Shown here: piece after piece, positions 8,937-26,249 of the stretch
Numbering within the stretch: position 1 is the first letter of the stretch
Layout of the letters: each line of letters starts with the position of its first letter
Assembly: GCF_029626225.1 (NCBI RefSeq)
Contig: NZ_JARUBP010000001.1
Location: 248,001-312,000 of the forward strand
Source of the DNA: Asanoa sp. WMMD1127
GTDB lineage: Bacteria; Actinomycetota; Actinomycetes; Mycobacteriales; Micromonosporaceae
Direction of reading: 5' to 3'
DNA length: 64,000 bases
Translations under genes and position numbers: made by a program
Notes under the pieces: generated by a model
Database searches by the model: none
Seen by the model: only the letters and a program-made list of their open reading frames with translations
What the model was told of the DNA's origin: nothing

Positions 8937-8951
8937 TGAAAATCACTTTCA
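8937..8951. promoter_or_regulatory. Zur box (znuABC / propeller promoter)
   Basis: TGAAAATCACTTTCA, a 7-1-7 palindrome with 6 of 7 arm matches, close to the actinobacterial Zur consensus. It lies between the divergent genes starting at 8817 and 9044. A second short inverted repeat, AATGA-ACG-TCATT (8998-9010), sits nearer the znuA start. Confidence 0.75.
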
Positions 8952-9043
8952 GGTACCTTGTGGTCTGAGCACCCTCTCGCCTAACGTCCTGCTGGTAATG
9001 AACGTCATTGTCAGTAAGCCGGACGTGGAAGGTGGCGATTCCG

Positions 9044-9976: not shown

Positions 9977-10794
9977 TGCCGGCGCCGGTGCTGGAGTTCG
10001 AGAACGCGGGGCTGAGCTTCGGGTCGCGGCGGCTCTGGGCGGACCTGTCGTTGCGGGTCGAGCTGGGCGAGTTCGTCGCGGTGCTCGGCGCCAACGGCTC
10101 GGGCAAGACCAGCCTGGTCCGCGCCATCCTCGGACTCACGCGCCTCAGCACCGGCCGGATCCGGGTGTCGGGCGGCCCGCCGCGTCGCGGGGCCGAGGAC
10201 ATCGGCTACGTGCCGCAGCAACGGCGGATCGATCCGCTCACGCCGATGCGCGCCCGCGACATCGTCGGCCAGGGCCTCGACGGGCACCGTTGGGGCCTCG
10301 GCCGGCGGGCCGGCCGCGCCGCGCGGATCACCGCGGCGCTCGAGTCGGTCGACGCGGCCCCGTTCGCGGACATGCCGATCGGCCTGCTCTCCGGTGGTGA
10401 GCAGCAGCGGGTACGCATCGCGCAGGCGCTCGTCGCCGACCCGCGGCTGCTGCTCTGCGACGAGCCGCTGCTCTCGCTCGACCTGCGCAGTCAGGGGACC
10501 ATCACCGCGCTGGTCGACCGACGCCGCCGGGAGAAAGGCACCGCGGTCGTGTTCGTCACGCATGAGATCAATCCCGTGCTGCCCTATGTGGACCGGGTGC
10601 TGTACCTGGCCGATGGCAGGTTCCGGATCGGCACGGTCGAGGAGGTCTTCACCTCAGCCACGATGTCCGAGCTGTACGGCGTCCCCGTCGAGGTGCTGCG
10701 GCTGAACGGCCGGATCCTGGTGGCCGGCATACCGCAGGCCGACGAGGCGCACCACCACGACAACGGTGCCGTCTCGGGAGCGCGGCGTGGCTGA
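9976..10794 (+). CDS. znuC: zinc ABC transporter ATPase
   Basis: Cytoplasmic ATPase of the metal importer, 272 residues. Walker A is GANGSGKT (about residue 38), the signature LLSGGEQQRVRIAQAL, Walker B LLLCDEPLLSLD and the switch His lies in VFVTHE. The C-terminus is short and His-rich (DEAHHHDNG), which may sense or bind metal (inference). ATG 9976 overlaps the znuA stop, and the gene overlaps znuB by 8 bases, so the three are translationally coupled. Confidence 0.93.
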   Translation: MPAPVLEFENAGLSFGSRRLWADLSLRVELGEFVAVLGANGSGKTSLVRAILGLTRLSTGRIRVSGGPPRRGAEDIGYVPQQRRIDPLTPMRARDIVGQGLDGHRWGLGRRAGRAARITAALESVDAAPFADMPIGLLSGGEQQRVRIAQALVADPRLLLCDEPLLSLDLRSQGTITALVDRRRREKGTAVVFVTHEINPVLPYVDRVLYLADGRFRIGTVEEVFTSATMSELYGVPVEVLRLNGRILVAGIPQADEAHHHDNGAVSGARRG

Positions 10795-11683
10795 CTCCGG
10801 GATCTGGTCCCAGGTCTTCAACTTCGCCGACTACGGCGAGTTGTTGGGCCTCGTCCACAACTCCCTGATCGCCGGCGCGGTGCTGGGGATCGTCGGCGGT
10901 CTGATCGGCACGTTCGTGATGATGCGCGACCTGCCCTTCGCCGTGCACAGCATCAGCGAACTGTCTTTCGCCGGCGCCTCCGGCGCTCTGCTGATGGGCG
11001 CCAACGTCGTGCTCGGCTCATTGACCGGCTCCATCCTCGCCGCACTGGTCATCGGCCTGTTGGGTAGCCGCGCCCGCGACCGCAACTCCGTCATCGGCGT
11101 TTTGATGCCGTTCGGTCTGGGGCTCGGCGTGCTGTTCCTGGCCCTCTACAAGGGGCGTGCCGCGAACAAGTTCGGCCTGCTCACCGGGCAGATCGTCGCC
11201 GTGGACACGCCGCAGCTCTCGTGGCTGCTGGTCACGTCGGCGGTGGTCGTGGTCGGGCTGCTGGTGATCTGGCGACCGCTCGCCTTCGCCAGCACGGATC
11301 CGGAACTGGCCGCGGGCCGTGGCGTGCCGGTTGCGGCGCTGTCGACCGTCTTCATGGTGCTGCTCGGGCTGACGGTCGCGATGTCGGTGCAGATCGTCGG
11401 CGCACTGCTCGTGCTCAGCGTCGTGTGCACCCCGGCTGCCGCCGCGATGCGGGTCAGCGCCTCGCCGCTGATGGTCACCGTGCTGAGCGTGCTGTTCGCC
11501 GTCGGCTCCGTCGTGGGCGGCATCCTGCTCGCCCTGGGCAGCACGATCCCGATCAGCCCGTACGTCACGACGATCTCGTTCCTGATCTACATCGTGTGCC
11601 GGATCGTGGGAGCGCGCCGGCAGCGGCGGGGCTGGCAGGTCATCCCCCGTCCGCGCGTCCCGCTGTCAGCCGCGGTTCGCTGA
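10787..11683 (+). CDS. znuB: zinc ABC transporter permease
   Basis: Membrane subunit of the metal importer, ABC-3 family, 298 residues with about eight hydrophobic segments. The family motif around LPFAVHSISELSFAGASGALL is present, as is AMSVQIVGALLVLSVVCTPAAAA, typical of ZnuB-type proteins. GTG 10787 is chosen because CGGGAG lies 6 bases upstream; it overlaps the end of znuC. An ArsR-type regulator follows 18 bases later. Confidence 0.92.
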   Translation: MADSGIWSQVFNFADYGELLGLVHNSLIAGAVLGIVGGLIGTFVMMRDLPFAVHSISELSFAGASGALLMGANVVLGSLTGSILAALVIGLLGSRARDRNSVIGVLMPFGLGLGVLFLALYKGRAANKFGLLTGQIVAVDTPQLSWLLVTSAVVVVGLLVIWRPLAFASTDPELAAGRGVPVAALSTVFMVLLGLTVAMSVQIVGALLVLSVVCTPAAAAMRVSASPLMVTVLSVLFAVGSVVGGILLALGSTIPISPYVTTISFLIYIVCRIVGARRQRRGWQVIPRPRVPLSAAVR

Positions 11684-12812: not shown

Positions 12813-13115
12813 TCAGGAGCCTTTGCGAACTCCTGGCAGCTCACCGCGCAGTGCCATCTCGCGGAACCGGATCCGAGATAGACCGAAGCCGCGCAGCACG
12901 CCACGCGGACGTCCGTCGACGCTGTCGCGATTCCGCCGGCGCACCGGGCTGGCGTCGCGGGGCAAGGCGGCGAGCCGGCGCACCGCATCCGCCCGCTCGG
13001 CAGGCTCCGTCAACGGCGCCACGATGAGCTGTTTGAGCGCGGTCCGACGCTCGGCATACCGGGCCACGAGTCGCGCGCGGCGCTTCTCGCGTTCAGTGAG
13101 GCCACGGCGGGCCAT
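12813..13115 (-). CDS. rpsN: zinc-free ribosomal protein S14 paralogue
   Basis: 30S subunit protein S14, 100 residues, in the long C-minus form: the two zinc-binding CxxC pairs of the housekeeping C-plus form are absent, and the C-terminal signature [31 protein letters not shown] is seen in pieces. Such paralogues replace zinc-containing S14 during zinc starvation (established for Streptomyces, Bacillus and mycobacteria). Its ATG shares base 13115 with the L33 stop, so it is the third gene of an L28-L33-S14 operon. Confidence 0.93.
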
Positions 13116-13282
13116 CAGCGCTCCTCGCGGAAGTCGACGTGTCGCCGGACCACCGGGTCGTACTTTCGCAGCACGAGACGGTCAGGGTCGTTGCGGCGGT
13201 TCTTGCGCGTCACGTAGGTGTAGCCGGTTCCGGCCGTGCTGCGGAGTTTGATGACGGGGCGGACGTCGGTGGTGCGGGCCAT
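13115..13282 (-). CDS. rpmG: zinc-free ribosomal protein L33 paralogue
   Basis: 50S protein L33, 55 residues. It reads [20 protein letters not shown] at the start, then [25 protein letters not shown]. The four zinc-ligand Cys of C-plus L33 are missing ([11 protein letters not shown] where RKFCPVCRKH would be expected). It is coupled to L28 and S14 by overlapping start and stop codons. Confidence 0.93.
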
Positions 13283-13518
13283 CAGGGCTTGCCTCCACGG
13301 GCACGCAGCCGCGCCACGACGGCCTCGATGCCGTCGCGGTCGATGGTGCGCAGGCCTCGGGCGCTGACCGTCAGTCGGACGTGCCGTCGCTCGCTGGGCA
13401 GCCAGAAGCGACGCTGTTGAAGGTTCGGGTTCCACCTGCGGCGGGTGCGGCGATGGGAGTGTGAGACGGCGTTGCCGAAACTCGGCTTGGCGCCGGTCAC
13501 GTCACAAATCTTGGACAT
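13282..13518 (-). CDS. rpmB: zinc-free ribosomal protein L28 paralogue
   Basis: 50S protein L28, 78 residues, beginning [20 protein letters not shown] and containing [14 protein letters not shown]. Only one Cys is present, so the zinc ribbon cannot form. First gene of the L28-L33-S14 unit. A Zur-like palindrome starts 17 bases upstream of the ATG and is shared with the divergent COG0523 gene. S18, often the fourth member of this swap set, is not in the window. Confidence 0.93.
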
Positions 13519-13534
13519 GCGACCAACTTTACAA

Positions 13535-13549
13535 TGAAAACCATTTCCA
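13535..13549. promoter_or_regulatory. Zur box shared by L28 operon and COG0523 gene
   Basis: TGAAAACCATTTCCA, 5 of 7 arm matches, in the 45-base gap between the divergent starts at 13518 and 13564. A repressor bound here would block both promoters. Confidence 0.7.
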
Positions 13550-13563
13550 ACAAGATGGTGGGC

Positions 13564-14805
13564 ATGAACTTCGACCCGATCACCGCAGCCCGGCGGCCGC
13601 CGGTCGAGCGGCAGCCCGCGGTCACCGTGCTGGCCGGCTTCCACCCCGAAGCCACGGCCGCGGTCGCCCGCCTCCTGCAGCTCGTCGACCCGCGACTCAT
13701 CTCCGTCAGCCACGACATCACCGCGGTACGCGAGGGAGTCGTCCGGCGTGTGGTGCGGACGGCGACCGAGGTGATCGAAGACGTCACGGCCACGTTGGTG
13801 CATGGCTGCGTCTCCTGCACCTTGCGCGAGGACGTGCTGCCGACCCTGGTGCGGCTGAGCCGGGAGCGGCCTGACGGCGACATCGTGCTGCTGCTGCCGC
13901 GGGTCGTCGAGCCCGAAGCGGTCGCGGGATCCTGCGCGCACTGCGTGGTCGACGGCCAGCCGGTCACCGACGCCGTCCGCTTCGACTCCTACGTCACCGT
14001 CGTCGACGCCGCTCACCTGCTCGCCGACCTGGGAACTGCCGACGATCTGCGCCACCGCGACCTGCACGCTGCCGAGGAGGACCATCGCTCCGTCGCCGAC
14101 GTGGTGGCCCGACAGATCGAGTTCGCCGACACCGTTGTCCTCTGGGGTGGCCCGCAGGTCGACGGGTACGAGCTGACCCGGGCGTCGGTGCTGCTCCAGC
14201 GGCTCGCGCCGTGGGCGACCCACCTGGCCGTCGACGCCAACCAGCGGATCGACTGCACCGACCTCGCGCGTCGCCTGCGCCACACCGGGCGGCATGATCC
14301 GCGGGTTCCCGGCATGCCCGGCCGGGCGCTGGAGGGCTACCCGATCGCGGCGCACTCCCCCGAGCCGGACTGCGGGGTCGTCTCGGTGCTGTTCGAAGCG
14401 CGCCGCCCGTTTCACCCGGGCCGCTTCCACGACGCGCTCGGCCCCCTCGCGACGGAGACGCTCCGCGGTCGTGGTCAACTGTGGATCGCCACCCAGCCGG
14501 ACACCGCGATCGCGTTCGAGTCGGCCGGGGGCGGGGTCGCCTTGGGCACTCTCGGCTACTGGCTCGCCGCCCTGCCGGACGAACGCTGGTCCGAGGCGAG
14601 TCCCGAACGGCGGATGACCGCCGATTTCCATTGGGATCCCGACTTCGGCGATCGGCGTACCGCCCTCGCGTTCGTCGGCCTCGACGTGGCGGCCGACACC
14701 GTGACCGAGCTCCTGCGTTCCTGCCTGATGACCGACCACGAGCTGGCCGGCGTCGACCCCTTCGCCGGCTGCTTCCCATTGACCGGCACCGAGGCCGCGG
14801 ACTGA
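13564..14805 (+). CDS. COG0523/CobW-type protein lacking the P-loop
   Basis: A 413-residue relative of the COG0523 G3E GTPases linked to metal insertion (YciC/ZigA, CobW). ATG 13564 is preferred to 13534 because the earlier ATG overlaps the Zur box. The CxxC-type metal motif survives as [11 protein letters not shown], and the C-terminal CobW domain reads [16 protein letters not shown]...[12 protein letters not shown]. However, the first segment reads [19 protein letters not shown] where a functional family member has SGFLGAGKTT, so the nucleotide-binding P-loop is missing. From memory this matches a mycobacterial zinc-regulated branch (Rv0106 type). Likely a zinc chaperone or scaffold rather than a GTPase (inference). 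Confidence 0.87.
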
Positions 14806-14861: not shown

Positions 14862-15503
14862 TCAGCTGGCGAGAACCTGGAACGTAAAGGCTTTGGAGCC
14901 GGAGGTGACCGTCGCACCGGTCGACGCGAGTACGCCGGTGACGCTGAAGGTGACGGTGTAGGTGCCCGCGGCGTCGAAGCCCCAGTTGACGTGCGAGTGG
15001 GTCAGCCGCGGCAGCGTGAAGGTGTCGGGCAGGCCGTTGCCGCTGTCGAACAGGACCGTGGGCGTTCCGCCGGTGGCGGTGTAGACGCTGAAGCCGGCCG
15101 GTCCGCTGACGGCGGTGAGCCGGAACGTCACCTTGTTGTCGACGAACACGCCAGCGGGGATCTCGGTGGTGTTCCAGCCGGCCCAGAGCAGACCCGGGAC
15201 GTTGTTCTGAGGCAGGACCCAGGCCGTGCCGCCGGTCCCGAGGAAGGACCAGGCGGGTGTGCCGGGGATGCCGGTGAGCTTGGCGGCGACCGGTACGCGG
15301 AACGTGACGTCGGACGGGTTCCGTTCGACCGCGGTCGTGCCGGTCTCGTCGAGGACCCGCAGGACGAGCGCGCCACCGCTGTAGTCGACGTCGAGGATGT
15401 CGACGTGGCCGCTCGTCAGGGTCACCGGCGCGGCGTGCGCCGGAGTGGCGACGGACCCGACGAGCAGCGCGGCGAGCAGCAGCGGCGCCACCGCCCGCCT
15501 CAT
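14862..15503 (-). CDS. secreted choice-anchor M (CAM) domain protein
   Basis: A 213-residue exported protein made of a signal peptide (to about residue 24, AHA) and one CAM domain (TIGR03769). Domain landmarks: SGHVDI (His 33), [36 protein letters not shown] and the C-terminal [10 protein letters not shown] (His 169, His 171). No membrane anchor or sortase signal, so it is probably free or bound to partners at the wall. ATG 15503 overlaps the upstream CAM gene by 4 bases. TIGR03769 proteins are known as surface partners of metal ABC transporters in actinobacteria; the GH[VTA]D plus HxH pattern looks like a metal site (inference). Confidence 0.9.
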
Positions 15504-16153
15504 GCCTGGACCTCGAAGCGGTAGAGACCGGCGTCGGCCACGGGCCGCCCCGTCGCGGCGAGTCTGCCGGTGACCGCGACGGTGATGCGGTAGGTGCCCG
15601 GCTCCTCGAAGGCCCAGTTCGCGTGCAGGTGGTCACCGGTGGGGAGGGCGAAGGTGTCGGGCTGGCCGTCGCCGGTGTCGACCAGGATGTCGGCCGGCAG
15701 TCCGAACGCGTTCTCGGTGTAGACGGCGACGTCACCCGGTCCCAGCACGGCGAACGTCACGTTGACCGTGTCGGCGCGCAGCACCCCGGCATCGATCTCC
15801 TCGGTGCCGAGCCCGGCCCAGATCAGGTCCGGGTCCTGGGTCTGCGGCAGGATCCACACCGGGTCACCGGCAGCACCCAGGAAGGCGTACGCGGGATCGG
15901 TCGGCACGCTGGTGGCGGCAGCCGGAAGGACGCGGAACCTGACGTCCTCGGGCTCCCGCTCCACATCCGGCTCGACGCTCTCGTCGTGTACGTGCAGGTG
16001 CAGGTTGCCGTCCTCGACGGCCACGCCGACCACGTCGACGTGGCCGTGGTCGATCACGATCAGGCCACCGGCCTGTGCCGGTGCCGCGGTGGCAGCCACC
16101 ACGGCGGCCGCGAGCGTGCTCGACGCGACGAGCACACGGATGGAGCTTCGCAC
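15500..16153 (-). CDS. secreted choice-anchor M (CAM) domain protein
   Basis: A 217-residue signal peptide plus one CAM domain. GTG 16153 has GAGGAG about 8 bases upstream. Landmarks: [10 protein letters not shown], an extra His run [39 protein letters not shown], and [10 protein letters not shown]. It is unusually rich in His around the first sheet. It is the first gene of a two-gene unit, overlapping the next by 4 bases. A Zur box lies 47-61 bases upstream of the start. Confidence 0.9.
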
Positions 16154-16199
16154 AGTCGCTCTCCTCCCCAGGGTCCCCAGTGGACTCCAAATATGAATA

Positions 16200-16214
16200 C
16201 GATAATCGTTTTCA
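16200..16214. promoter_or_regulatory. Zur box upstream of CAM gene pair
   Basis: On the minus strand TGAAAACGATTATCG, one of the best matches in the window to the Zur consensus. It is positioned for control of the genes at 16153 and 15503. Confidence 0.75.
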
Positions 16215-16290
16215 TATGGATGCGATAGGCATGCCAGCGAAGGAGGATTCGTGAAGTCAGGTCAGGGCGGGGGGCCCACCCCGGTGGCGG

Positions 16291-16695
16291 TCAGCGCGCG
16301 CAGGCGGAGCAGGTGCCGAAGATCTCGAGCGTGTGCGCCACGTCGGTGTAGCCGTGCTGGTCGGCGACCTTCTCCGTCCACCGTTCCATGGCCGGGCCCT
16401 CGATCTCGACCGTCCGGCCGCACATGCGGCACACGAGGTGGTGGTGGTGCCGGGACCGGGAGCACTGCCGGAACAGCTGCTCGCCGTCCGGCGTCCGCGT
16501 CGAGTCCACCTCGCCGCTCTCGACCATGCGCTGCAGGGTGCGGTAGACGGTGGTCAGGCCGACCTTGGCGCCCCGCTCGCGAAGGATTCCGTGCAGCTGC
16601 TGCGCCGTGAGGAAATCGTTGACCTCTTGGAGCAGAGCGGTCACTTCGGTGCGCTGCCGCGTGGTGCGGCCGGGGAGTGGGGTCGAGCCGTTCAC
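16291..16695 (-). CDS. zur: Fur-family zinc uptake regulator
   Basis: A 134-residue Fur-type repressor. GTG 16695 is chosen because AGGAGG lies 9 bases upstream; upstream in-frame sequence is basic and unlike Fur. DNA-binding domain: LTAQQLHGILRERGAKVGLTTVYRTLQRM. Metal features: SRSRHHHHLVC in the hinge, then CRMC and CSAC, the two CxxC pairs of the structural zinc site. The neighbours (zinc ABC systems, C-minus ribosomal proteins, COG0523 protein) make Zur the natural identity rather than Fur or Nur. A weak Zur-like box 44-58 bases upstream suggests autoregulation. Confidence 0.92.
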   Translation of the reverse strand: MNGSTPLPGRTTRQRTEVTALLQEVNDFLTAQQLHGILRERGAKVGLTTVYRTLQRMVESGEVDSTRTPDGEQLFRQCSRSRHHHHLVCRMCGRTVEIEGPAMERWTEKVADQHGYTDVAHTLEIFGTCSACAR

Positions 16696-16738
16696 CAGGG
16701 GATTCCTCCTGTTCCGACGCGCGACCCTACCACATATG

Positions 16739-16753
16739 CGCAAACCGCTATCA
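16739..16753. promoter_or_regulatory. candidate Zur box upstream of zur
   Basis: On the minus strand TGATAGCGGTTTGCG, matching about 12 of 15 positions of the strong boxes. It lies between the CAM-LAQTG gene stop (16810) and the zur start. Confidence 0.4.
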
Positions 16754-16809
16754 TTGCCGCCGGCGACCGGATGGTCCCGGTCGCCGGCGGATTCAGCTCC
16801 GGTCCGCGC

Positions 16810-18357
16810 TCACCGTTCGGCCGCCCGGCGCCGTCGAGTCCCGAGGACGACAAGTCCGCCGAGGACGACGGATCCGCCCCCGACCAGGACAGCGGCGATC
16901 GTCCACGACGTTCCGGTCTGGGCGAGCCGTCCCCCGTCGCCGCCGCTGCCCGGTCCGTCGTTCCCGGTGCCCGGATTGCCGCCCGGCGCGCCGAAAGCAC
17001 GATTGGGATCGACGCTGCCGACCGCGAGATTGAGCGTCCGGCGGTCGACCAATGCCTTGCCGTCCTTGGTGGTGCCGGCCATCTCGACGCCGAGGTGATA
17101 GATCCCCGGTCTGGTGAAGGCCCAACTGCCGTGCGCATGGGTGTTCGGCGCGATCGCGAGTTGCTGTGGCAGCTTCTTGCCGGAGTCGAAAAGCACCTCG
17201 GGCCGGCCGAAGGATCCGGTGAGGAACAGCTTGAACTGGCCGGGGCCGCTGACGCTGGCGAGCCGCCAGGTGACGGACCCCTTGGTCCCGTTGACGACCG
17301 ACGGGTCCTGAGTGTTCCAGCCGGGCCAGACGATGCCGGCCTGCTGGGCTTGCGGCAGCATCCACACGTCGGAGCCGGCCTGGCCGAGAAACGCGTAGTC
17401 CGAACCGGCCGGCACCTTGATCTTCGCCTTGTCGACGACGTGCAGGACGACGTCGGACAGGTTCCGCCAGACGGCCGGACTGGCGGTGTCGTCGCGGAGC
17501 CGGATCGTCCAGCTGCTGCCGTTCAACTGGGGGCCCATGTCGACGTGGCCGTCGGCGATCACCTTGCGCCCGCCGGCCGGTGCGGCCTTCGGCGCCGGGG
17601 CGGCCGCCTTGGGTGCCGCGACCTGCGGCACGGCGAGGGGCGTGTGCTCCGTCTCCGCGGCCCGCCGCAGCGCGGCGGGTGACGGCTGGGTGGCCGGTGG
17701 ATCGACCGTCTCCACGGGGCTGATAGGTGGGACCTCCACACGGAAGGTGGCCTCGTCCCGCAACTCCCGACCGCCGCGGTCACGACCCGTGACGGCGAGC
17801 GCGACCCGATACGAGCCAGGTGTGTCGAACGCCCAGAGCACGCCTCCGCGGCGCTGGCCGGCACGCAGCACGGTGGTGGTGGGTTCGGCCGCCGCGCTGC
17901 CCAGAAGAACATCGACGGCGCCCAGACCGCGCTGCGCGTAGGCGTGGAACCGACCGGGACCCTCGACGCCGACGAGGTGCACGGTGAGCGTGTCGTCGAC
18001 CAGCCGTCCGTTGGGGATTGCGGTGGCATCGAACGCGGGAAAGTCCCCGTCCGTGGCCAGCACCCATACCGGCGTCCCCGGCGGCCCCAGGAACGAGAAC
18101 TCGTCGCGGGCCGGGGCAGCCCCGGTGAAGCCATCTCCGGCGTCGAGCGTGACGTGCGACGGGTCGGTTCCTGGGTGGCCGGCACGGATCTGGCCGGCGT
18201 CCCGCGCGTTGAGGACCAACCCATCGGACTCCAGGCGGACGGACACGAGGTCAGCGCCGGCGACCGGCAGTGTCCTCGGCTCTGCGCGGGCCGGCATGGG
18301 ACCGGCCAGCACGGTGACAGCGACCCCGCACACGAGTGCGACGGTGGTTCGCTTCAT
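16810..18357 (-). CDS. two-domain CAM protein with LAQTG wall anchor
   Basis: A 515-residue surface protein, TIGR03773-like. ATG 18357 has GGAGGAAAG upstream. Order: signal peptide (to about 25), a degenerate CAM domain (about 26-215), a Pro/Ala-rich linker (about 215-265), a typical CAM domain (about 265-450), a Gly-rich spacer, LAQTG, a membrane segment and RRRRAAER. LAQTG fits the LAXTG motif of class E sortases in high-GC actinobacteria. The first domain has lost the His pattern (GADLVSV for GHVD; RRGGVLWAF for HxHxNWAF), while the second keeps ADGHVDMG and NTHAHGSWAF. It overlaps the DUF916 gene by 4 bases. Family notes propose that such anchored proteins hand substrate to the ABC transporter. 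Confidence 0.91.
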   Translation of the reverse strand: MKRTTVALVCGVAVTVLAGPMPARAEPRTLPVAGADLVSVRLESDGLVLNARDAGQIRAGHPGTDPSHVTLDAGDGFTGAAPARDEFSFLGPPGTPVWVLATDGDFPAFDATAIPNGRLVDDTLTVHLVGVEGPGRFHAYAQRGLGAVDVLLGSAAAEPTTTVLRAGQRRGGVLWAFDTPGSYRVALAVTGRDRGGRELRDEATFRVEVPPISPVETVDPPATQPSPAALRRAAETEHTPLAVPQVAAPKAAAPAPKAAPAGGRKVIADGHVDMGPQLNGSSWTIRLRDDTASPAVWRNLSDVVLHVVDKAKIKVPAGSDYAFLGQAGSDVWMLPQAQQAGIVWPGWNTQDPSVVNGTKGSVTWRLASVSGPGQFKLFLTGSFGRPEVLFDSGKKLPQQLAIAPNTHAHGSWAFTRPGIYHLGVEMAGTTKDGKALVDRRTLNLAVGSVDPNRAFGAPGGNPGTGNDGPGSGGDGGRLAQTGTSWTIAAVLVGGGSVVLGGLVVLGTRRRRAAER

Positions 18358-19391
18358 GAGTTCTTTCCTCCGATGGAAGTGGTGGACAGAGCCTCGGCGC
18401 GGCCGGCGTCGCGGGCAGCGGCGAGCGCGCGTCGGCTGGCCCGCCGACGCCACCACCCGAGCCAGCCCAGGCCGGCCACGAGCAGCGACACGGCGATCTG
18501 CGGCCAGGGTGGCGCCCAGAGGGACGCGGTGTTCGTCACCGCGGGTGGTGCAGCACCCGGTGGCCCGACGGTTGTCGGCAGAAGGTCAAAGTGGACCGTC
18601 AGCCGGCCCAAAGGCAGGATCCCGTTCGCGCGTACGGTGGTGAGCACTTCACCGCCGGGCAGGATCTCCGGCACCGGATCCGTGCGGGCGACGCGACGGC
18701 CGACACCGAACGGGCCGGCGACCGTCGTCGTGGGTCGCCCGGTGAGCCGGACGTTGCCGGTGTTGCGGATCCGGTAGGTGGCCGTAACGACGCCGCCGCC
18801 CATCGGGTTGACGGTGCCGGTGTAGCTCACGGCGACGCGCTCGATGTCGACCGCCGGCCGCACCTCACCCGTGACTCGCAGGTACATACGCGCCCCGACG
18901 CGTCGGTCCACCTTCACCTGGCCGCCGTCGGCACTGACCGCGGTGCTCGCTACGGCGGCGACGATTCCGCCGGCGTGGTCGCCGGGCGTGGCGTTCTTCG
19001 GCACTGACAGCCGGAACGGCACGTCCATGCGGGACTTCGAGGGAATCGTCAGCCGGGCGAACCTGCTGTCGAACGACACCCAGCTGCCGACGTCGGTCGG
19101 CTCGCGCGCCGCCGGGAGCAGGTCGAAGCCCCCCTGCTCGGTGGTGAACGCGTCGCTGGCGTACAGGTCGAGGGTGATCGGTGCGGCGGAGTAGTTGGAG
19201 ATGGCGGCATAGTCGGTGAGCGTCGCACCGGGGTCGAGCTTGTAGGTGAACGAGGCGCGGCCGTCCGGCCCGTTCCGGGTCGACGGCGCGATGCCCCATG
19301 TCTGCGGGGTGGTGGGTTCGGCGTGCGCCGCCGCCCCGACCGGCAGGACACCGGTCAGGGCGGCGACGACCGCCACGGCAAGCAGACGCAT
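18354..19391 (-). CDS. DUF916 (WxL-interacting) surface protein
   Basis: A 345-residue membrane-anchored protein. Signal peptide to about residue 24, then an N-terminal DUF916 peptidoglycan/WxL-partner domain (TWGIAPST, DYAAISNYSAAPITLDLYASDAF, VPFRLSVPKNATPGDHAGGI), a second Ig-like domain (about 165-275), a C-terminal membrane helix (IAVSLLVAGLGWLGWW) and a basic tail. In Firmicutes, DUF916/DUF3324 proteins pair with WxL-domain proteins at the wall. Here the upstream neighbour ends in a WxL-like domain, so the same pairing is likely. The three genes 19394-16810 are tightly packed. Confidence 0.88.
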   Translation of the reverse strand: MRLLAVAVVAALTGVLPVGAAAHAEPTTPQTWGIAPSTRNGPDGRASFTYKLDPGATLTDYAAISNYSAAPITLDLYASDAFTTEQGGFDLLPAAREPTDVGSWVSFDSRFARLTIPSKSRMDVPFRLSVPKNATPGDHAGGIVAAVASTAVSADGGQVKVDRRVGARMYLRVTGEVRPAVDIERVAVSYTGTVNPMGGGVVTATYRIRNTGNVRLTGRPTTTVAGPFGVGRRVARTDPVPEILPGGEVLTTVRANGILPLGRLTVHFDLLPTTVGPPGAAPPAVTNTASLWAPPWPQIAVSLLVAGLGWLGWWRRRASRRALAAARDAGRAEALSTTSIGGKNS

Positions 19392-19393
19392 GG

Positions 19394-20860
19394 TCAGATG
19401 GCGGTCAGCGTCAGCGTCGCGGCGTACTGGCCGGCCGCGGTCTCGCTCGGCAGCTCGAGCCGCAACTCGGCGCCCAGCTGTGCCGTGCCGCGGCCGCTGC
19501 CGACCGGCGCCGAACCCAGCACGGCCCCACCCGCGATGCCGTTGCCGGCGGTGAAGCCCGGCGCCGCCACTGGACCGGCGACGACACCCTGTCCTTCGGC
19601 CTGGGCGAGCACGCGCGGGGTCCAGCCCAGGTATCTGCCGGCGAAACCGCCGCCGGCCGACGCGACGAAGTCGGACACCGAGCCGGATGCGTTCCAGCCC
19701 GGCCGGGCCGCCCTCGTGTCGGTCACCGTCACCGGGCGCAGCGCCCCCGAGGTCTCCAACCGGTCACCGCTGGCACCGACGGTGGCCGGCGGCAGGCTCA
19801 CCGTGCGGTTGTTGGGATCCACACTGAGGACCAACGCACCGTCCGTCTCCCTGATCGTCGCGGTGATCGACTGGCTGGAGGCCGGGTCCCCAGGGTTGCC
19901 CTCCTCCTTGACGACGAGCGTGACCGGGTCGGCTTCGGCCACCGCCTGGTGGTCGTCGTCGTAAAGGACGGCCTTGTACTGGCAGCCGTCCAGCTCCGCG
20001 GTCGCGGTGAACTGGTAGGAGAAGGTGAGCTCGCCGGACACGACCGCGAAGTCCGGCGCACCGGGGCACTTGCTGAACCAGTGGAAGTGGTCCAGGTCGG
20101 TCTCCACGTCGGTCATCGCGACGAGGTTGACCTGCTGTCCCGGCCGGTAGCTGTCCTCCAGGCCGTAGATGTCGAGCTGGAGCGCCGGATCGGTCCCGTC
20201 TCCGACGAGGAACGTGTAGTCGACCGGACCGGACGACAGCTTCGTGCCGTCGGTGAGCGTCGCATCGGCCTGGAACTTCAGGGTGTAGGCGCCGGTAGCG
20301 CTGAACGCCCAGTTCGCATGGGCGTGGGTGTGCACCGGGACGTCCAAGGCGTCGGGTAGGCCGTCGTCGGTGCGGAACTTGTGCAGCGGCATCCCGATGG
20401 CGTCGGACATGAACACCCACACGTCGCCGGGCCCGTCGACGTCGACGAGGCTGAGCTTGACCGAGTCGCCGGCGAACACCCCGCCCGGCAGCGTCGTGGT
20501 GTTCCAGCCCGGCCAGAGCAGGTTGGGGTCCTGCACCTGGGGCAGGAGCCAGACGGTGGCGCCGGGCGCACCCAGGAAGCCGTACTGCGGGATGTCGGGC
20601 ACCTGCACGGCGGACGTCGGCAGGGCCTGGAACGTGACGTCCGCCGGGTCACGGACGACCGAAGGCTCGACGGTGTCGTCGTGCACCTTGAGGCTCAGAG
20701 CCCCGTTCTCGTAGTGGACGTCCACCGCGTCGGTATGGCCCTGCGACAGGACCACCTTCTCCGCGGCGGCGGCCGGAGTCGCACCAATCGCCATGCCGGC
20801 CAGCAGGGCGACGGCGGTCGCGGCGACCGTCAACGGTCGCTCGCACGCTCGTAGTCTCAT
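19394..20860 (-). CDS. CAM protein with C-terminal WxL-like domain
   Basis: A 488-residue exported protein. Signal peptide to about 33; CAM domain (about 34-240) with SQGHTDAVDV, WLLPQVQDPNLLWPGWNT, GPGDVWVFM and VHTHAHANWAF; a middle Ig-like part with two Cys and a DHFHWF motif (about 245-330); and a WxL-like domain (about 340-488) marked by VTVTDTRAARPGWNASG...VSDF and ending YAATLTLTAI. WxL domains bind peptidoglycan and DUF916 partners. It leads a three-gene operon with the DUF916 and LAQTG genes. ATG 20860 follows a purine-rich GGAAGGGGAGGG. Zur-like palindromes lie 17-37 bases upstream. Confidence 0.88.
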   Translation of the reverse strand: MRLRACERPLTVAATAVALLAGMAIGATPAAAAEKVVLSQGHTDAVDVHYENGALSLKVHDDTVEPSVVRDPADVTFQALPTSAVQVPDIPQYGFLGAPGATVWLLPQVQDPNLLWPGWNTTTLPGGVFAGDSVKLSLVDVDGPGDVWVFMSDAIGMPLHKFRTDDGLPDALDVPVHTHAHANWAFSATGAYTLKFQADATLTDGTKLSSGPVDYTFLVGDGTDPALQLDIYGLEDSYRPGQQVNLVAMTDVETDLDHFHWFSKCPGAPDFAVVSGELTFSYQFTATAELDGCQYKAVLYDDDHQAVAEADPVTLVVKEEGNPGDPASSQSITATIRETDGALVLSVDPNNRTVSLPPATVGASGDRLETSGALRPVTVTDTRAARPGWNASGSVSDFVASAGGGFAGRYLGWTPRVLAQAEGQGVVAGPVAAPGFTAGNGIAGGAVLGSAPVGSGRGTAQLGAELRLELPSETAAGQYAATLTLTAI

Positions 20861-20876
20861 CCCTCCCCTTCCTTAT

Positions 20877-20897
20877 TGGAAATGAGTTTCATTTTCA
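20877..20897. promoter_or_regulatory. overlapping Zur-like palindromes
   Basis: 20883-20897 reads TGAAAATGAAACTCA on the minus strand; an overlapping 15-mer at 20877-20891 is TGGAAATGAGTTTCA. Both are upstream of the CAM-WxL operon. Confidence 0.65.
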
Positions 20898-20942
20898 TTG
20901 AGAGCGGAAGGTAGCACGGGTCGGGTGGGCTGTCGAGAACGA

Positions 20943-21797
20943 TCAGGTCGCCGACAGGCGTGCGGCGATCAGGCCGTGCCGAGGAGCGAAGACCCAGGCG
21001 ACCAGGAACGCCGCGGTGAGGACGAGGACGATCGTGCCGCCGACCGGAAGGTCCCACGACCAGGAGAGGTAGAGTCCGATCAGCGCTGACAGGCCGCCCA
21101 GCGCCGGCGCGAGCACCATCATCACGCCGAGCCGGTCAGTCAGGAGCCTGGCGGTCGCGGCCGGTGTGACCAGCAGCGCGAGCACCAGGATGTTGCCGAT
21201 GGTCTGCACCGAGATGACCACGGCCAGGGTGACCAGCACGTACAGGGCGATGTCGAGCCAGAACGTACGCAGACCGGTTGCTCTGGCCATCTCGCGGTCG
21301 AGGGTGACGGCCACGAACTCCTTGTGCAGCAAAAGCACGGCGAGGATGACGCCCAGGCCGGTGAGAACCACCACGTAGACGTCCCGGTCGGGGATGCCGG
21401 TGATCGAGCCGAAGAGGAACTGCTGCAGGGATCCGGCGTAGCCGGGCGCCCGCGAGATGACGACGATGCCCAGCGCGAACGCCGAGACGAAGAACACGCC
21501 GATGACGGAGTCCTCTTTGAGCCGCCGGTTCTGCGCGAAGACCGCGACCAGGATCGCGGTGACGACGCCGGCGACCGTGCCGCCCAGCACGAGGTTGCCG
21601 GACACGACGAACGCCACCGCCAGCCCAGGGAACACGGCGTGGGCGACCGCGTCGCCGATGAACGCCATGCCGCGCAGGACCACGTAGGTGCCCACGACAC
21701 CGCACACGATCGCGGCCACGACCGCGATCACCAATGCCTTCGGGAGAAAGGACAGGTCAGGGTTGACCAGGTCGTGCAGAAAGTCGACGGGAGACAT
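20943..21797 (-). CDS. anchored-repeat metal ABC transporter permease
   Basis: Membrane subunit of a second metal importer (ABC-3 family, TIGR03770-like), 284 residues, about eight spans. Motifs include VLRGMAFIGDAVAHAVFPGLAVAF and ISVQTIGNILVLALLVTPAATARLL. It is the last gene of the four-gene unit starting at 25035; its ATG lies just after the ATPase stop. It is clearly distinct from the ZnuB at 10787. Confidence 0.9.
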   Translation of the reverse strand: MSPVDFLHDLVNPDLSFLPKALVIAVVAAIVCGVVGTYVVLRGMAFIGDAVAHAVFPGLAVAFVVSGNLVLGGTVAGVVTAILVAVFAQNRRLKEDSVIGVFFVSAFALGIVVISRAPGYAGSLQQFLFGSITGIPDRDVYVVVLTGLGVILAVLLLHKEFVAVTLDREMARATGLRTFWLDIALYVLVTLAVVISVQTIGNILVLALLVTPAATARLLTDRLGVMMVLAPALGGLSALIGLYLSWSWDLPVGGTIVLVLTAAFLVAWVFAPRHGLIAARLSAT

Positions 21798-21798
21798 C

Positions 21799-22569
21799 TC
21801 ACGCTCCTCGCTCGACGGGCGCCCGGCTGTCGATCCCGATGCTGGCCAGCAGCGGGCTGCGCTCGCTCACGCCGAAGGCGTCCATCCACACGCGAGCGTC
21901 GCGCAGGTCGTCGGGCCGGCCGAAGGCGACCACTGTGCGGTTGAGCAGAGCCAGGCGATCGCAGGTGTGCATCGCGGACGCCAGGTCGTGGGTGGCCATG
22001 ACGACCGCGTTCTCCTGTGCCAGGGCGGTGAACAGCTCGCCGAGTACCTCCTGGGTGGGCATGTCGAGGCCGGTGAACGGTTCGTCGAGCAGCAGGACCC
22101 GCGGGCGTAGCACCAGGGCCCTGGCCACCAGGACCCGCTGCCGTTGGCCACCCGACAGCTCCGCGACCGGCCGTCGGCGCAGGTCCGTCATCCGTACCCG
22201 CTCGAGGGCCTCGCCGACCGCACGCCAGTGCGCCACGTTCGGGCGGCGGAAGAGGCCGATGCGCCGTGCCAGGCCGGTCATCACCGCGTCCTGGACGGAG
22301 ACCGGGAAGTCCCAGGTGAACGCATGGCGCTGTGGCACGTAGCCGATCGGTGAGCGGCCAGGGCGGGCCGGTAGCCCGGCCACCGTGATCCGGCCCGCCC
22401 TCGTGCGCACCAGCCCCAGCACCGCTCGCAACAGCGTCGTCTTGCCCGCGCCGTTCGGTCCGACGAGGCCGACCAGCTCGCGGTCCGCGACGTGGAGGTC
22501 GACGTCGCGCAGAACGGGCCTGCGGCCGAGGTCGACATCGACATGGTCGAGAGAGAGGACGGCGCTCAC
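21799..22569 (-). CDS. anchored-repeat metal ABC transporter ATPase
   Basis: ATPase of the second importer (TIGR03771-like), 256 residues. GTG 22569 is preferred because it overlaps the upstream stop as GTGA. Walker A GPNGAGKT, signature ELSGGQRQRVLVARAL, Walker B VLLLDEPFTGLD and MATHD are all present. The family aromatic motif reads YVPQRHAFTWDFPVSV. Confidence 0.92.
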   Translation of the reverse strand: MSAVLSLDHVDVDLGRRPVLRDVDLHVADRELVGLVGPNGAGKTTLLRAVLGLVRTRAGRITVAGLPARPGRSPIGYVPQRHAFTWDFPVSVQDAVMTGLARRIGLFRRPNVAHWRAVGEALERVRMTDLRRRPVAELSGGQRQRVLVARALVLRPRVLLLDEPFTGLDMPTQEVLGELFTALAQENAVVMATHDLASAMHTCDRLALLNRTVVAFGRPDDLRDARVWMDAFGVSERSPLLASIGIDSRAPVERGA

Positions 22570-23450
22570 GGCTGCTGTTCCCGCTCCGCGCGTCGCCGGA
22601 CGCGCCGGCCTCGCCAACCGACCCAGACGAGCCCCGCTGCGACAGCGGCGGCGGCGACGGCCACCCCGGCGGTCAGCACGGATGGACCGCGCTCCGGTGG
22701 GTCGGTTTCACTGTCCGGCGCGACGGCGGACGGCAACGGGTTGGTGAACGCCGCGGCGAAGGCGGCGTCGGCAGTGGTCCGATCCCCAACCGCGAACCTG
22801 AGCACCTCGCGCGCGGTGACCGTCTCGCCGCCCGCCAGCTCCGCGGCGAACTCGACGGTCGCGAGATAGACACCCGGGCGGGCGAACACCCAGTTGGCGT
22901 GCGTGTGTGTGTTGGTCTCGACCCAGACCGGCTGCGGGTACGGCTGCCGGCTGTTCCACAGCACGTCCGGGGCGCCGAGGCTGCCGGACTGCAGGAACAC
23001 CGTCAGGTCGCCGGGGCCCTGGACGCCCAGGAGGCTCATCGTCACACCCCGGGCGACGGCGTCCATGACCCCGGGGTCCTGCGTGTTCCAGCCCACCCAG
23101 ACGACGTCCGGGTCCTGCGTCTGCGGGATCACGTGCACCGGCGTGCCCGGCTCCTGGTCGAGGAACGCGTACGCCGGATCGTCGGGCACTTTCTGGACCG
23201 CCGCGTCCGGCACGCGGATCACCGCATCGCGCGGCGACCGCCACACGGGCGGGACGACCGTGTCGTCGTGCACGAGGACAGTCCACTCTCCGTCGTGGTA
23301 GCGCGGGCCGATGTCGACGTGACCGGCGCCCAACTCCGCCCGCCCCGCGGTCACAGCCTGGTCGGCCGCGACCCGCTGGTCGAGGTCGTCGGGGGACGGC
23401 GACGGCGCGAGGGCGAGGGCGATCACGGCCAGGACGCCGAGTGTTCTCAT
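22566..23450 (-). CDS. membrane-anchored CAM domain protein
   Basis: A 294-residue CAM protein within the ABC operon. N-terminal signal, CAM domain (about 35-225) with GAGHVDIGPRY, VIPQTQDPDVVWVGWNTQDP, GPGDLTVFLQ and ETNTHTHANWVF, then a spacer, one membrane helix (SVLTAGVAVAAAAVAAGLVW) and a strongly basic tail. No sortase motif, so it is held in the membrane. Its position between the substrate-binding protein and the ATPase suggests it docks metal at the transporter. Confidence 0.9.
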   Translation of the reverse strand: MRTLGVLAVIALALAPSPSPDDLDQRVAADQAVTAGRAELGAGHVDIGPRYHDGEWTVLVHDDTVVPPVWRSPRDAVIRVPDAAVQKVPDDPAYAFLDQEPGTPVHVIPQTQDPDVVWVGWNTQDPGVMDAVARGVTMSLLGVQGPGDLTVFLQSGSLGAPDVLWNSRQPYPQPVWVETNTHTHANWVFARPGVYLATVEFAAELAGGETVTAREVLRFAVGDRTTADAAFAAAFTNPLPSAVAPDSETDPPERGPSVLTAGVAVAAAAVAAGLVWVGWRGRRVRRRAEREQQP

Positions 23451-23466
23451 GTGCTGGGGCTCCCCA

Positions 23467-25035
23467 TCAGGTCAGGCATCGCTTGAGCGAGTCGGCGTTG
23501 ACGCGCATCATCTGCACGTACGTGGTCACGGTGTCGTCGAAGGCGTCGCCGTAGATGGGACACACCCGCCGTTGCTGCTCTTCCGCCACCTGGGCCAATG
23601 TGGACGATCGGGCGGCCAGGTTCGGTTCGAGGAACACCGCACGCACACGCAGGTTGCGAACGGTCTCGGTCAGCTTCCGCCGGTCCGCGATGCTCGGCTC
23701 GACCGCCGGGTTCGGCGTCACGAAACCGGCGACAGGGATCTGGTAGGCATGCGCCAGGTAGCCGAACGCGTCGTGGGTGGTGACCAGATATCGCTGCGGC
23801 GGCGGAATCGACGCGATCGTCTCCGCGACATAGGCGTCCAGCGCGCTCAACTCGCCCAGGTAGCGCTCCGCGTTGCGGCGGTAGGTGCTCGCCCCGGCCG
23901 GGTCGACGGCGGTCAGCGTGTCCCGGATGAGCTCCACGTAGGCCTGCGCGTTGCCGACGTCCTGCCACAGGTGCGGGTCGATCTCGCCGTGCACGTGCCG
24001 GCCGAGCACCGCCTGCGGCAACTGGTAGACCTGTTGTCCCGGCCGGCCCAGGAATCGGTAGCCGCGGCCGGCCGGCACTTCCTTCAGGGCCTTGGCCGGC
24101 ACCTCGATCACCGTGCTCGCCGGGTCGTACACCTCCTGGTTGACGTCCCCGCCGCCGTGCGGGTCCGCGTAGAGGTAGAGACGCCCGGTGTCGAGGTCGG
24201 CGGAGATGTCCGCGTGGCCGGCCGCGAGCACCGTCGGCGCGGGGATGCCGGTTGCCGAGTGGGGGTCGACACCGACGGCGAAGGTGAACGTCTGCGTCCC
24301 GAGGTCGACCGGCCTGGCGTCGTGGGCCACCCGCAGTTTCGCGGACATGGTGAGCCGGTAGACGCCGGGTGCGGTGAACGCCCAGCTCATATGGGTGTGT
24401 GCGGCGGGCGGCAGCGTCGCCGTGTCGTCCCGGTAGCCGTCGGAGGGGTCGAAGCCGTCCGCGGAGTTGACGTAGAAGGCCGGATCTCCGAACGACTCCG
24501 TCAGGTAGGCGACGAGGTCACCGGGGCCGGACACGTCCGTGGCCGAGACCAGCACGTCGGATGCCCGGTCCGCGCCGCGCTGGGCGCCGGTGCCTCGCAC
24601 CCGCAGGCCCAGCCAGATGGTGTCCAGCGAGACGTCCTCGACCAGCGGAATGATCTCGGCCGCGTACTTCGACGCGCGCTCGGCCAGGGCGATGTTCGGA
24701 ACACCGTCGCGGAGGTTCGCGTCCAGCGCCTTGATGACGTTCTGCGCCTCCAGCAGGAGGTAATTGCTGAACGCGACGTCGGCGTACACGATGTTGCGCA
24801 CGTCGCGCAGGCTCGGCTCGTAGACGTGTGAGTCGGCGTTGTCCGGCACGATCGAGTCCACGACGACGCGATCGCCGCCGACGTTGCGCGTCAGGTCGGC
24901 CAGGATGCCGGTCGTCGTGACCACCTGGAGCTGGTCGGTGGATCGGTTGAACGCCACGGGCGCCGTGCAGGCCCCGAGGACGAGAGCACAGCCGGCGGCC
25001 ACCGCCGCCCACCCCCATTGCCTGTGCGCCGCCAC
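23467..25035 (-). CDS. anchored-repeat ABC substrate-binding lipoprotein with inserted CAM domain
   Basis: Zinc-binding lipoprotein, 522 residues (TIGR03772-like). GTG 25035 is used because the Zur box lies just upstream and GGGGAG precedes it. Lipobox LVLGAC (Cys 23). The ZnuA fold is split: the N-lobe with metal His 70 (DSHVYEPS) runs to about residue 135; a CAM domain fills about 136-341; then His 355 (DPHLWQD), His 421 (THDAFGY) and an acidic ligand in VFLEPN complete the site. Inside the insert the CAM C-terminal half (IWLGL...HTHMSWAF...TFTFAVG) comes before the N-terminal half (GHADI...VYQLPQ), the reverse of all other CAM copies here. First gene of the unit running to 20943. Confidence 0.92.
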   Translation of the reverse strand: MAAHRQWGWAAVAAGCALVLGACTAPVAFNRSTDQLQVVTTTGILADLTRNVGGDRVVVDSIVPDNADSHVYEPSLRDVRNIVYADVAFSNYLLLEAQNVIKALDANLRDGVPNIALAERASKYAAEIIPLVEDVSLDTIWLGLRVRGTGAQRGADRASDVLVSATDVSGPGDLVAYLTESFGDPAFYVNSADGFDPSDGYRDDTATLPPAAHTHMSWAFTAPGVYRLTMSAKLRVAHDARPVDLGTQTFTFAVGVDPHSATGIPAPTVLAAGHADISADLDTGRLYLYADPHGGGDVNQEVYDPASTVIEVPAKALKEVPAGRGYRFLGRPGQQVYQLPQAVLGRHVHGEIDPHLWQDVGNAQAYVELIRDTLTAVDPAGASTYRRNAERYLGELSALDAYVAETIASIPPPQRYLVTTHDAFGYLAHAYQIPVAGFVTPNPAVEPSIADRRKLTETVRNLRVRAVFLEPNLAARSSTLAQVAEEQQRRVCPIYGDAFDDTVTTYVQMMRVNADSLKRCLT

Positions 25036-25063: not shown

Positions 25064-25078
25064 TGAAAACCGTTTTCG
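25064..25078. promoter_or_regulatory. Zur box (anchored-repeat ABC / propeller promoter)
   Basis: TGAAAACCGTTTTCG, 6 of 7 arm matches and the most symmetric core in the window (GAAAAC-N-GTTTTC). It lies between divergent genes starting at 25035 and 25134. Confidence 0.78.
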
Positions 25079-25133: not shown

Positions 25134-26249
25134 GTGAACGAAGCGCGCGAATCGGCGCCGGAGCCTCCGCCGCGCCGGCCCCGACCGCCCGCGCGCAGGG
25201 TGCTCGCCCTGGTCGGGGCCCTGGTGGCGACCGGCGCGCTCGTGGCGCAGACGCCGGAGGGGCCCCGCGCGCCGCAACCACCGCCGCCCGGGGTCGGAAC
25301 CGTATGGCCGCAGGCTCAGCGCGCGAACGTTCCCGGTGTGCTGGCCGACGGCGCTTCGTACAACCCGGCCTTCTTCGTCGACGCGCGGGTTTCCGCCGGC
25401 ACCGCCGTGGACGCCAACGGTAAGACGGTGCGCCTGCTGCTCCGCGCGGCCGACGGCACCGTGCGGGTGCTCCGCCGGCTCCCGGCTTCGGTCGGCCCGC
25501 AGTTCGAGGCGTTCGCCCTCGTGGGCAACCAGCTGGTGTGGGCGGAGACGGACGGGACGGCCCAGACCACGCTGTGGCGCGCCGATCTGTCCGGCGGCGC
25601 GCCACGAACGATCACCGACGACACCGGCTGGGCAACCTTCGCCGGCTCTGACTACGACCTCGTCGCGCGGGCCGACCGGCTGTTCTGGACAGCGACGGCG
25701 CCAGGCGACCAACCGGCGACGGAAGTGCGGTCGGTGCCCGTCGACGGCGGGCCGGTCGAGGTGCGCACCGAGCCGGGCGAGTGGACACTGTCGCGCTGGC
25801 CATGGCTGGTCACCCGGGGCGGCGGCGGCCCTCGGTTGCGCAGCCTCGACACCGCCGCGACCATCGAGGTGGACGCCGGCCGAGATCGTCCGGGCCAGTG
25901 CGCGCCAACGTGGTGTCGCGTGTACGTGCTGTCCGCCGACGGCCCGGCCCAAACGGAACTGATGCGTCCCGACGGATCGGAGCGGCTCCGGATAGCGGAG
26001 GACGGCGCGACCGCTTCGATCGTCGACGTGGCGCCGCTGGACCGGTTCGAGGTGCTCTCGAAGGACTCGAGCGCGCTGGGCGCCGCGCTCGGCGGGCAGG
26101 AGCTACTCGTATACGACCTCGAGAGCCGGCGGACGATCCTGGTCGCCGCAGCCGCGACCAGCGTGTCCTATCGATCCGGCGTGCTGTGGTGGTCCACCAA
26201 CTCGCTCGGCGTCCTCTCCTGGCACACGCTCGACCTTCGCACGGTCTGA
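25134..26249 (+). CDS. membrane-anchored probable beta-propeller protein (paralogue of 7687-8817)
   Basis: A 371-residue paralogue of the gene at 7687. A Pro/Arg-rich N-terminus precedes one membrane segment (LALVGALVATGALVA), then GTVWPQAQRANVP...FFVDARVS, repeated W/D-rich strands, CAPTWC and LWWST near the end. Identity is clear along the whole length, yet they sit 17 kb apart at opposite ends of the zinc island. Like its paralogue it is transcribed away from a zinc lipoprotein gene across a Zur-like box. No Shine-Dalgarno is obvious at GTG 25134, so it may be leaderless. Function unknown. Confidence 0.82.
   Translation: MNEARESAPEPPPRRPRPPARRVLALVGALVATGALVAQTPEGPRAPQPPPPGVGTVWPQAQRANVPGVLADGASYNPAFFVDARVSAGTAVDANGKTVRLLLRAADGTVRVLRRLPASVGPQFEAFALVGNQLVWAETDGTAQTTLWRADLSGGAPRTITDDTGWATFAGSDYDLVARADRLFWTATAPGDQPATEVRSVPVDGGPVEVRTEPGEWTLSRWPWLVTRGGGGPRLRSLDTAATIEVDAGRDRPGQCAPTWCRVYVLSADGPAQTELMRPDGSERLRIAEDGATASIVDVAPLDRFEVLSKDSSALGAALGGQELLVYDLESRRTILVAAAATSVSYRSGVLWWSTNSLGVLSWHTLDLRTV

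Follow-up and report, generated by a model that had tools for sequence, protein, structure and literature searches.

The window analysed here, a stretch of 64,000 nucleotides from Asanoa sp. WMMD1127, carries on its minus strand, between positions 14862 and 25035, an uninterrupted block of genes for an anchored-repeat ATP-binding cassette (ABC) importer and for six proteins with the choice-anchor M (CAM) domain. This block is very probably an island for zinc acquisition under Zur control, of the anchored-repeat type (ZnuAECB plus ZnuF/ZnuG). On zinc shortage, Zur would come off its boxes, and the importer would be made together with the CAM proteins. CAM would then be present in four settings, i.e. 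free outside the cell, in the wall through sortase, in the wall through a WxL-like/WxLIP pair, and at the membrane; a permuted CAM would additionally be built into the substrate-binding lipoprotein. The outer CAM proteins would raise and buffer zinc near the cell, and the membrane CAM protein (ZnuE-like) and the fused CAM would load the importer. The cluster itself, the conservation of its metal motif, the boxes and the co-occurrence of the anchors were observed directly.

Organization of the CAM cluster

Matches to NCBIfam and Pfam models were judged against the curated cut-offs (in bits), and TIGR03769 was also run on the whole genome. The genes, named here by their lower coordinate, follow each other on the minus strand in the order 23467, 22566, 21799, 20943, 19394, 18354, 16810, the putative zur (16291), 15500 and 14862 (Table 1). 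A preliminary description of this DNA had counted nine uninterrupted genes; the block is indeed uninterrupted, but with zur (16291-16743) the count is ten. The six CAM genes located there all exceed the cut-off of the CAM model NF038134 (55 bits), with 91.6 to 262.9 bits. TIGR03769, with which that description had equated CAM, has seven matches in the genome, all within the cluster and six above cut-off, but this model covers a 41-residue stretch within CAM, less than the full domain. The anchored-repeat importer was correctly recognized, its three subunits (TIGR03770, TIGR03771 and TIGR03772) being each above the curated cut-off. Measured against TIGR03769-TIGR03773 and NF038134, the subunits of the transporter and the six CAM proteins thus all exceed the cut-offs; the surface-protein cut-off of TIGR03773 is passed by 16810 only, and the WxL-like end of 19394 is uncovered in the NCBIfam scan.

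Genes 15500 and 14862 overlap by four bases, the probable start of 16810 (ATG at 18357) overlaps the WxLIP stop codon, and several other gaps are short or overlapping. For 23467, the GTG start at 25035 is preferred because a Zur-like box sits within the longer open reading frame (ORF) starting at 25107. A GC-rich inverted repeat was seen by eye at 16744-16809, between 16810 and zur, so that zur and the CAM genes may not simply share one transcript. The earlier placement of 14862 and 15500 as free secreted proteins, and of 22566 as membrane-anchored, agrees with their C-termini: the first two have no hydrophobic stretch there, the third has one followed by a basic tail.

The CAM domain and its metal motif

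An alignment of 80 CAM domains, taken from the window and from 14 regions in relatives, revealed a motif of two halves, HxD and HxH, in which Asp9 is invariant, as is Trp149, and His7, His144 and His146 are each found in 72 of the 80. The search was extended to an 80-locus set (the best 80 of 387 relatives), which shares genomes with the 14 regions (e.g. L039 = L049 and L040 = L057). It gave 673 matches at E < 1e-10, of which 486 span both motif halves; the remaining 187 were dropped. HxD and HxH are intact in 443 of the 486 domains (371/406 in the 80-locus set alone). Six of the seven CAM units of the window carry both, the exception being the N-terminal unit of 16810.

The AlphaFold2 model of the 15500 CAM is mostly beta, with a mean predicted local distance difference test score (pLDDT) of 98.2. 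A sequence search of the PDB gave no convincing relative (best E 0.042) and a Foldseek search of solved folds gave a best E of 4.6e-4 with a template modelling (TM) score of 0.32, the TM to the query being at most 0.40 among the 50 listed of 1542 matches. The idea that CAM is a known solved fold was rejected, since neither search gave a close match. In AlphaFold models of the Corynebacterium diphtheriae proteins ZnuE and ZnuG, the motif residues are described as meeting (PMC12445094).

The substrate-binding protein

That 23467 is a lipoprotein with a built-in CAM, as first described, is borne out by its lipobox (LGAC), by TIGR03772 and by a CAM match in two pieces. In this CAM the HxH (at 237) comes ahead of the HxD (at 298). 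As we read the alignments, this CAM would be circularly permuted, with the two lobes attached where 'LPQ' and 'LWxGW' adjoin in an ordinary CAM. HxH and HxD are invariant across 15 aligned binding proteins, L048 among them being only a piece. His 94, 379 and 445 and Asp 521 (numbering from the TTG at 25107) form a candidate metal site, the presumed ligands in view of related structures. The third ligand position is a His (TTHDAF), as in zinc-type proteins such as TroA and ZnuA; manganese-type proteins have a Glu there.

The model of 23467 (mean pLDDT 80.7) has fold matches to metal-binding proteins such as YfeA, MntC and AztC, with MntC and PsaA among the closest. Since MntC and PsaA are manganese proteins, an importer for another metal (manganese), or for several, with a CAM that is not zinc-specific, was considered. 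It is very improbable: the cluster has Zur-type boxes, the His in TTHDAF is of the zinc type, and the C. diphtheriae orthologues, under anchored-repeat names, were reported in 2019 to be zinc-repressed and under Zur control (PMC6711530). The reversed motif is a family trait, since it is also described for C. diphtheriae ZnuA (PMC12445094).

Zur-like boxes and zinc-related neighbours

The 64-kb window was scanned with a 15-base Zur consensus, strand matches with up to three mismatches being compared with shuffles. Ten strand matches were found at seven places, against 0.01 expected (Table 1). In the 80-locus set, 50 loci had 96 such boxes between them, whereas a single dinucleotide shuffle of each locus gave 2. 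Upstream of genes in relatives, boxes were present for 12/41 WxL-like CAM genes and 28/267 other CAM genes; compared with 111/5000 random windows, the enrichment is clear before both classes. WxLIP genes, at 1/40, showed none.

A second, ordinary znuACB set (ZnuA, ATPase, permease) lies at 9008-11683 on the plus strand with its own Zur-like boxes, and the CAM system is therefore probably not the sole zinc importer. The preliminary description had proposed a full zinc chain from wall to membrane; this second set is another likely route for zinc, and one of the seven CAM units is without motif.

On the minus strand, 12813-13518 contains genes for S14 and L33 and, by eye, the L28-like end of a longer ORF; also by eye, the S14 and L33 genes encode no cysteines. 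The COG0523 GTPase at 13534-14805 (plus strand) has its best score, 285.7 bits, with the MRF ribosome-hibernation model, whose cut-off is 375. Two other frames adjoin boxes and have no Pfam or NCBIfam match at E 0.001: a divergent gene at 25134-26249 (plus strand), which shares the intergenic region of the 25064 box, and a 503-codon frame at 7687-9198 (minus strand), which overlaps the boxes before the second znuACB.

Predicted wall anchors

The wall linkage of 16810 by LAQTG, as first described, agrees with its sequence: the C-terminus has LAQTG, a hydrophobic stretch and RRRR, TIGR01167 scores 21.2 bits against a cut-off of 15.9, and the genome has seven sortase matches. The other wall anchor, described as WxL-type, had to be qualified. 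The C-terminus of 19394 has no match to the Pfam WxL model PF13731 at E ≤ 1, and it has an invariant Trp but no literal W-x-L motif, which is present in 3 of 19 aligned domains. Of nine relatives, six match PF13731 and two are above cut-off (L163, 46.0 bits; L175, 29.8 bits). With a profile built from the 19394 domain, partners of WxLIP genes were found in other places as well, and PF13731 matches some of them. A true WxL protein was therefore not upheld for lack of the PF13731 match and the motifs, and 'WxL-like' was kept because the profile and the adjoining WxLIP gene support it. For 18354, no further Pfam match was found at E ≤ 0.01 that would correspond to the second (host-binding, DUF3324) domain.

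In the stretches covered by the 80-locus set, WxLIP is present in 43 loci, a CAM-WxL-like gene in 40, both in 40 and neither in 37. The CAM-WxL-like gene was never found without WxLIP (0/80); WxLIP alone was found in three (L054, L066 and L067), in each of which the contig runs out some 3 kb upstream of the gene for the binding protein. Both genes are present in 10 of the 15 loci formed by the window and the 14 regions. The two frames are on the same strand, within 75 bases of each other or overlapping, in 46 of the 50 loci with both (exceptions: L035, L046, L052 and L053).

PF06030 is matched in 28 of 296 genomes of the phylum, this one included, with 39 matches listed. The surroundings of 36 of them were covered by 35 regions from 27 other genomes, some short at contig ends; those left out are the window's own, G323:C23 and G343:C119. 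A WxL-like partner was present in 23 of the 35 regions and a CAM nearby in one (L166). The notion of WxL/WxLIP as a zinc-specific device was rejected on this count. Since such pairs are also found away from CAM in the phylum, the zinc cluster has apparently borrowed a module of general use in wall anchoring. In the single exception (L166:5521-7659), a protein with CAM and a WxL-like domain accompanies WxLIP, with no recognized anchored-repeat importer in the 16 kb covered. One genome, G325 (L171, L172, L174, L183, L195 and L196), has six or more WxLIP genes, accompanied by WxL-like partners but not by a CAM, which implies that the module has other cargoes.

In published WxL/WxLIP modules (PMC10599100), the C-terminal domain and the adjacent WxLIP are shared with the Asanoa pair; as described there, WxL proteins are almost entirely from Lactobacillales and Bacillales. 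The Asanoa pair differs in carrying CAM as its cargo and in lacking literal W-x-L motifs. The CAM protein with its WxL-like end and WxLIP is probably a sortase-independent wall anchor, new here. A literature search for WxL, zinc and Zur together gave one paper, on a different subject to judge from its title and the first part of the abstract.

A CAM domain without the motif histidines

In the N-terminal CAM of 16810 all three motif histidines are lost. This is the case for 43 of the 486 domains (35/406 in the 80-locus set alone), with no intermediate. In all 43, Arg replaces the first His of HxH. The tree of the 41 distinct sequences places them in one clade with a support of 1.0; independent losses were rejected for that reason, and the all-or-none loss counts as one event, old and kept. 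An intact CAM follows in the same reading frame for 42 of the 43, and by a rough rule the genes that contain them have an end of the sortase type in 40 cases (all but L072, L073 and L082). The loci belong to genera that we take to be Micromonosporaceae, and for the rest to further relatives. One genome (G015) has two anchored-repeat clusters (L037 and L038); within the stretches covered, the WxL-like pair and the His-less CAM were seen in one of them.

An Arg-Asp pair might stand in for zinc in these domains. A more speculative idea, to which we give little credence, is that of a wall zinc antenna made of sortase-fixed and sortase-free CAM (the latter WxL-like, on membrane-bound WxLIP), where the His-less CAM, with its Arg near the kept Asp at the would-be zinc site, would be a permanently 'closed' unit that docks onto other CAMs and organizes zinc hand-over. 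Related sortase-independent anchoring might then bear on the wall localization of C. diphtheriae ZnuF. This link is limited by the published account, in which the C-terminus of ZnuF has a membrane stretch followed by a charged tail and no WxL-like domain (PMC12445094).

Distribution among relatives

By its binding protein, the nearest relative is Asanoa siamensis (93% identity; records of the genome itself may be excluded). TIGR03772 is above cut-off in 14 of 61 genomes among relatives, this one included, and in 2 of 6 of the same genus; TIGR03770 is above cut-off in 3 of 396 genomes of the phylum, again counting this one. The anchored-repeat/CAM system is thus patchy among relatives, and the gene set recurs around the transporter in them.

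Table 1. Coordinates in the window of the cluster genes, the His-less CAM domain and the Zur-box-like palindromes
Feature	Position	Strand	Evidence
ZnuA/TroA-type substrate-binding lipoprotein, putative permuted CAM between lobes, HxH then HxD	23467..25035	-	TIGR03772 770.4 bits (cut-off 350.45); NF038134 91.6, two pieces
ZnuE-like membrane-anchored CAM protein	22566..23450	-	NF038134 198.2 bits; HxD/HxH intact; C-terminal hydrophobic stretch and basic tail
ABC ATP-binding subunit, start probably further downstream	21799..22617	-	TIGR03771 345.4 bits (cut-off 268.8)
ABC permease	20943..21797	-	TIGR03770 453.2 bits (cut-off 296.8)
CAM protein with C-terminal WxL-like domain (~residues 300-488)	19394..20860	-	NF038134 185.7 bits; own WxL-like profile
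WxLIP, peptidoglycan-binding domain; hydrophobic stretch near C-terminus	18354..19391	-	PF06030 39.1 bits (cut-off 27.3)
Sortase-type (LAQTG) protein, two CAM: first without three His, second intact	16810..18357	-	TIGR03773 331.2 bits (cut-off 190.3); NF038134 262.9; TIGR01167
His-less 'pseudo-CAM' domain of 16810	17722..18273	-	Motif loss in alignment and domain search; tree
Putative zur (Fur family regulator)	16291..16743	-	PF01475 104.8 bits; two CxxC pairs and HHHH stretch in sequence
Secreted CAM protein without anchor	15500..16153	-	NF038134 165.3 bits; no C-terminal hydrophobic stretch; CAM model pLDDT 98.2
Secreted CAM protein without anchor	14862..15503	-	NF038134 167.6 bits; no C-terminal hydrophobic stretch
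Zur-box-like palindrome before lipoprotein gene	25064..25078	.	3 mismatches
Two overlapping Zur-box-like palindromes before WxL-like CAM gene	20877..20897	.	2 and 3 mismatches
Zur-box-like palindrome before secreted CAM pair	16200..16214	.	3 mismatches
Zur-box-like palindrome at start of COG0523 GTPase ORF (+), divergent from ribosomal protein genes (-)	13535..13549	.	2 mismatches
Two Zur-box-like palindromes before/at start of second znuACB	8937..9013 (boxes at 8937, 8999)	.	1 and 3 mismatches

Comparison with published systems

The closest published system is the znu cluster of C. diphtheriae, in which ZnuA, ZnuE, ZnuC, ZnuB, ZnuF and ZnuG were described in 2025 together with an HxD/HxH motif (PMC12445094). 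The terms choice-of-anchor, CAM and TIGR are absent from the main text of that paper; we infer from the motif, the gene order and the product names that its motif region is CAM. As far as both are described, the Asanoa cluster resembles znuAECB and znuF-znuG-dip0444-dip0445 in having an anchored-repeat importer, a membrane CAM-like ZnuE and proteins with several motifs and a sortase signal, as well as in the HxD/HxH motif, its reversed order in ZnuA and, probably, Zur control. Against that description, the WxL-like CAM protein with WxLIP, the two unanchored secreted CAM proteins, the His-less CAM and the position of zur within the cluster are differences on the Asanoa side. The idea that proteins with the HxD/HxH motif bind zinc and serve an ABC importer has thus been published, and the central claim made here is largely known.

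Other systems are more distant. Zur control of surface proteins across actinobacteria was predicted (PMC2823685), and C. glutamicum cg0040-cg0043, described in the same work, has, like the Asanoa cluster, surface proteins (there cmrA and sapD) and znuABC behind a palindromic site of the Zur type but is unlike it in gene content and anchors. Streptococcal polyhistidine triad (Pht) proteins with AdcAII, compared by description (PMC12445094), also bind zinc at the surface and have been proposed to supply a binding lipoprotein with it; the Pht motif, HxxHxH, is unlike HxD/HxH.

Weighing of the zinc-acquisition interpretation

The observations above lead us to infer metal binding, regulation and the locations of the proteins, as well as any direct hand-over. 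Zinc as the substrate is well supported in this way by the Zur-like boxes, the His3-Asp site (of the zinc type), the cysteine-free S14 and L33, and the experimentally studied relatives in C. diphtheriae. The island is further favoured by the family scores above cut-off, the clustering of all seven TIGR03769 matches, the intact motif in most CAM domains, the recurrence of the gene set in relatives, the zinc-related neighbours (second znuACB set, COG0523 GTPase, S14 and L33) and the published zinc thermal shifts.

Several points weigh against the zinc-acquisition island. The first CAM of 16810 is without metal motif. Only 50 of the 80 loci have boxes, and 46 of the 96 lie outside the 600-base upstream stretch of every recognized cluster gene. 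Boxes before binding-protein genes (3/79) are hardly above the random value, and there are none before the permease (0/77) and ATPase (0/80) genes. The Fur-family gene scores 43.1 bits with the NCBIfam Zur model PRK11639, far under its cut-off of 167. In C. diphtheriae, as reported (PMC12445094), the conserved His residues were not conclusively tied to zinc binding in vitro, and deletion of znuF or znuG gave no growth defect on scarce zinc.

This last result also counts against a full directional relay from wall to membrane, in which zinc would pass from CAM to CAM down an affinity gradient into 23467. A chain from wall to membrane had been proposed at the outset. Its zinc part is well supported and its multi-layer placement stands; the directional hand-over is possible but unproven, and we consider it unlikely. 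All layers are in one cluster with Zur-like boxes, a single domain family recurs from stage to stage up to its fusion with the binding protein, and the transfer from AztD to AztC is a precedent for hand-over (PMC6689063). The layers vary, however: the 37 loci noted above have neither WxLIP nor the WxL-like CAM gene in the stretch covered.

A surface zinc sink or store, in which wall and secreted CAM proteins would hold zinc (as a reserve, or to deny it to competitors) with no directional hand-on and only the ZnuE-like and binding proteins would feed the importer, is a possibility, if a doubtful one. According to PMC12445094, loss of ZnuF/ZnuG rescues a znuAECB mutant and their over-expression slows growth; the two secreted CAM proteins without anchor also fit a sink. 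Yet the CAM proteins share their cluster and Zur-type boxes with the importer, and the presence of a CAM in the binding protein of the importer itself speaks for some contact between CAM and importer. ZnuE supports growth when zinc is scarce, a zinc thermal shift was seen for ZnuE, ZnuF and ZnuG, and the conserved His matter for the growth effects (PMC12445094). The C. diphtheriae phenotypes fit a relay no better than a surface sink or buffer; between stepwise relay and concentration or storage, the published deletions lean to a sink for the wall proteins and to a true uptake role for the ZnuE-like protein.

To conclude, the probable zinc-acquisition island of Asanoa mainly extends a published zinc system to further actinomycetes, Micromonosporaceae among them. 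Its first addition is a wall anchor that holds a zinc protein, probably without sortase, and that adjoins the stated question of how ZnuF comes to be in the cell wall without any known sortase (PMC12445094). Second, it adds a natural motif-less CAM in the same proteins, with which it can be asked whether zinc binding, docking or both underlie CAM function.

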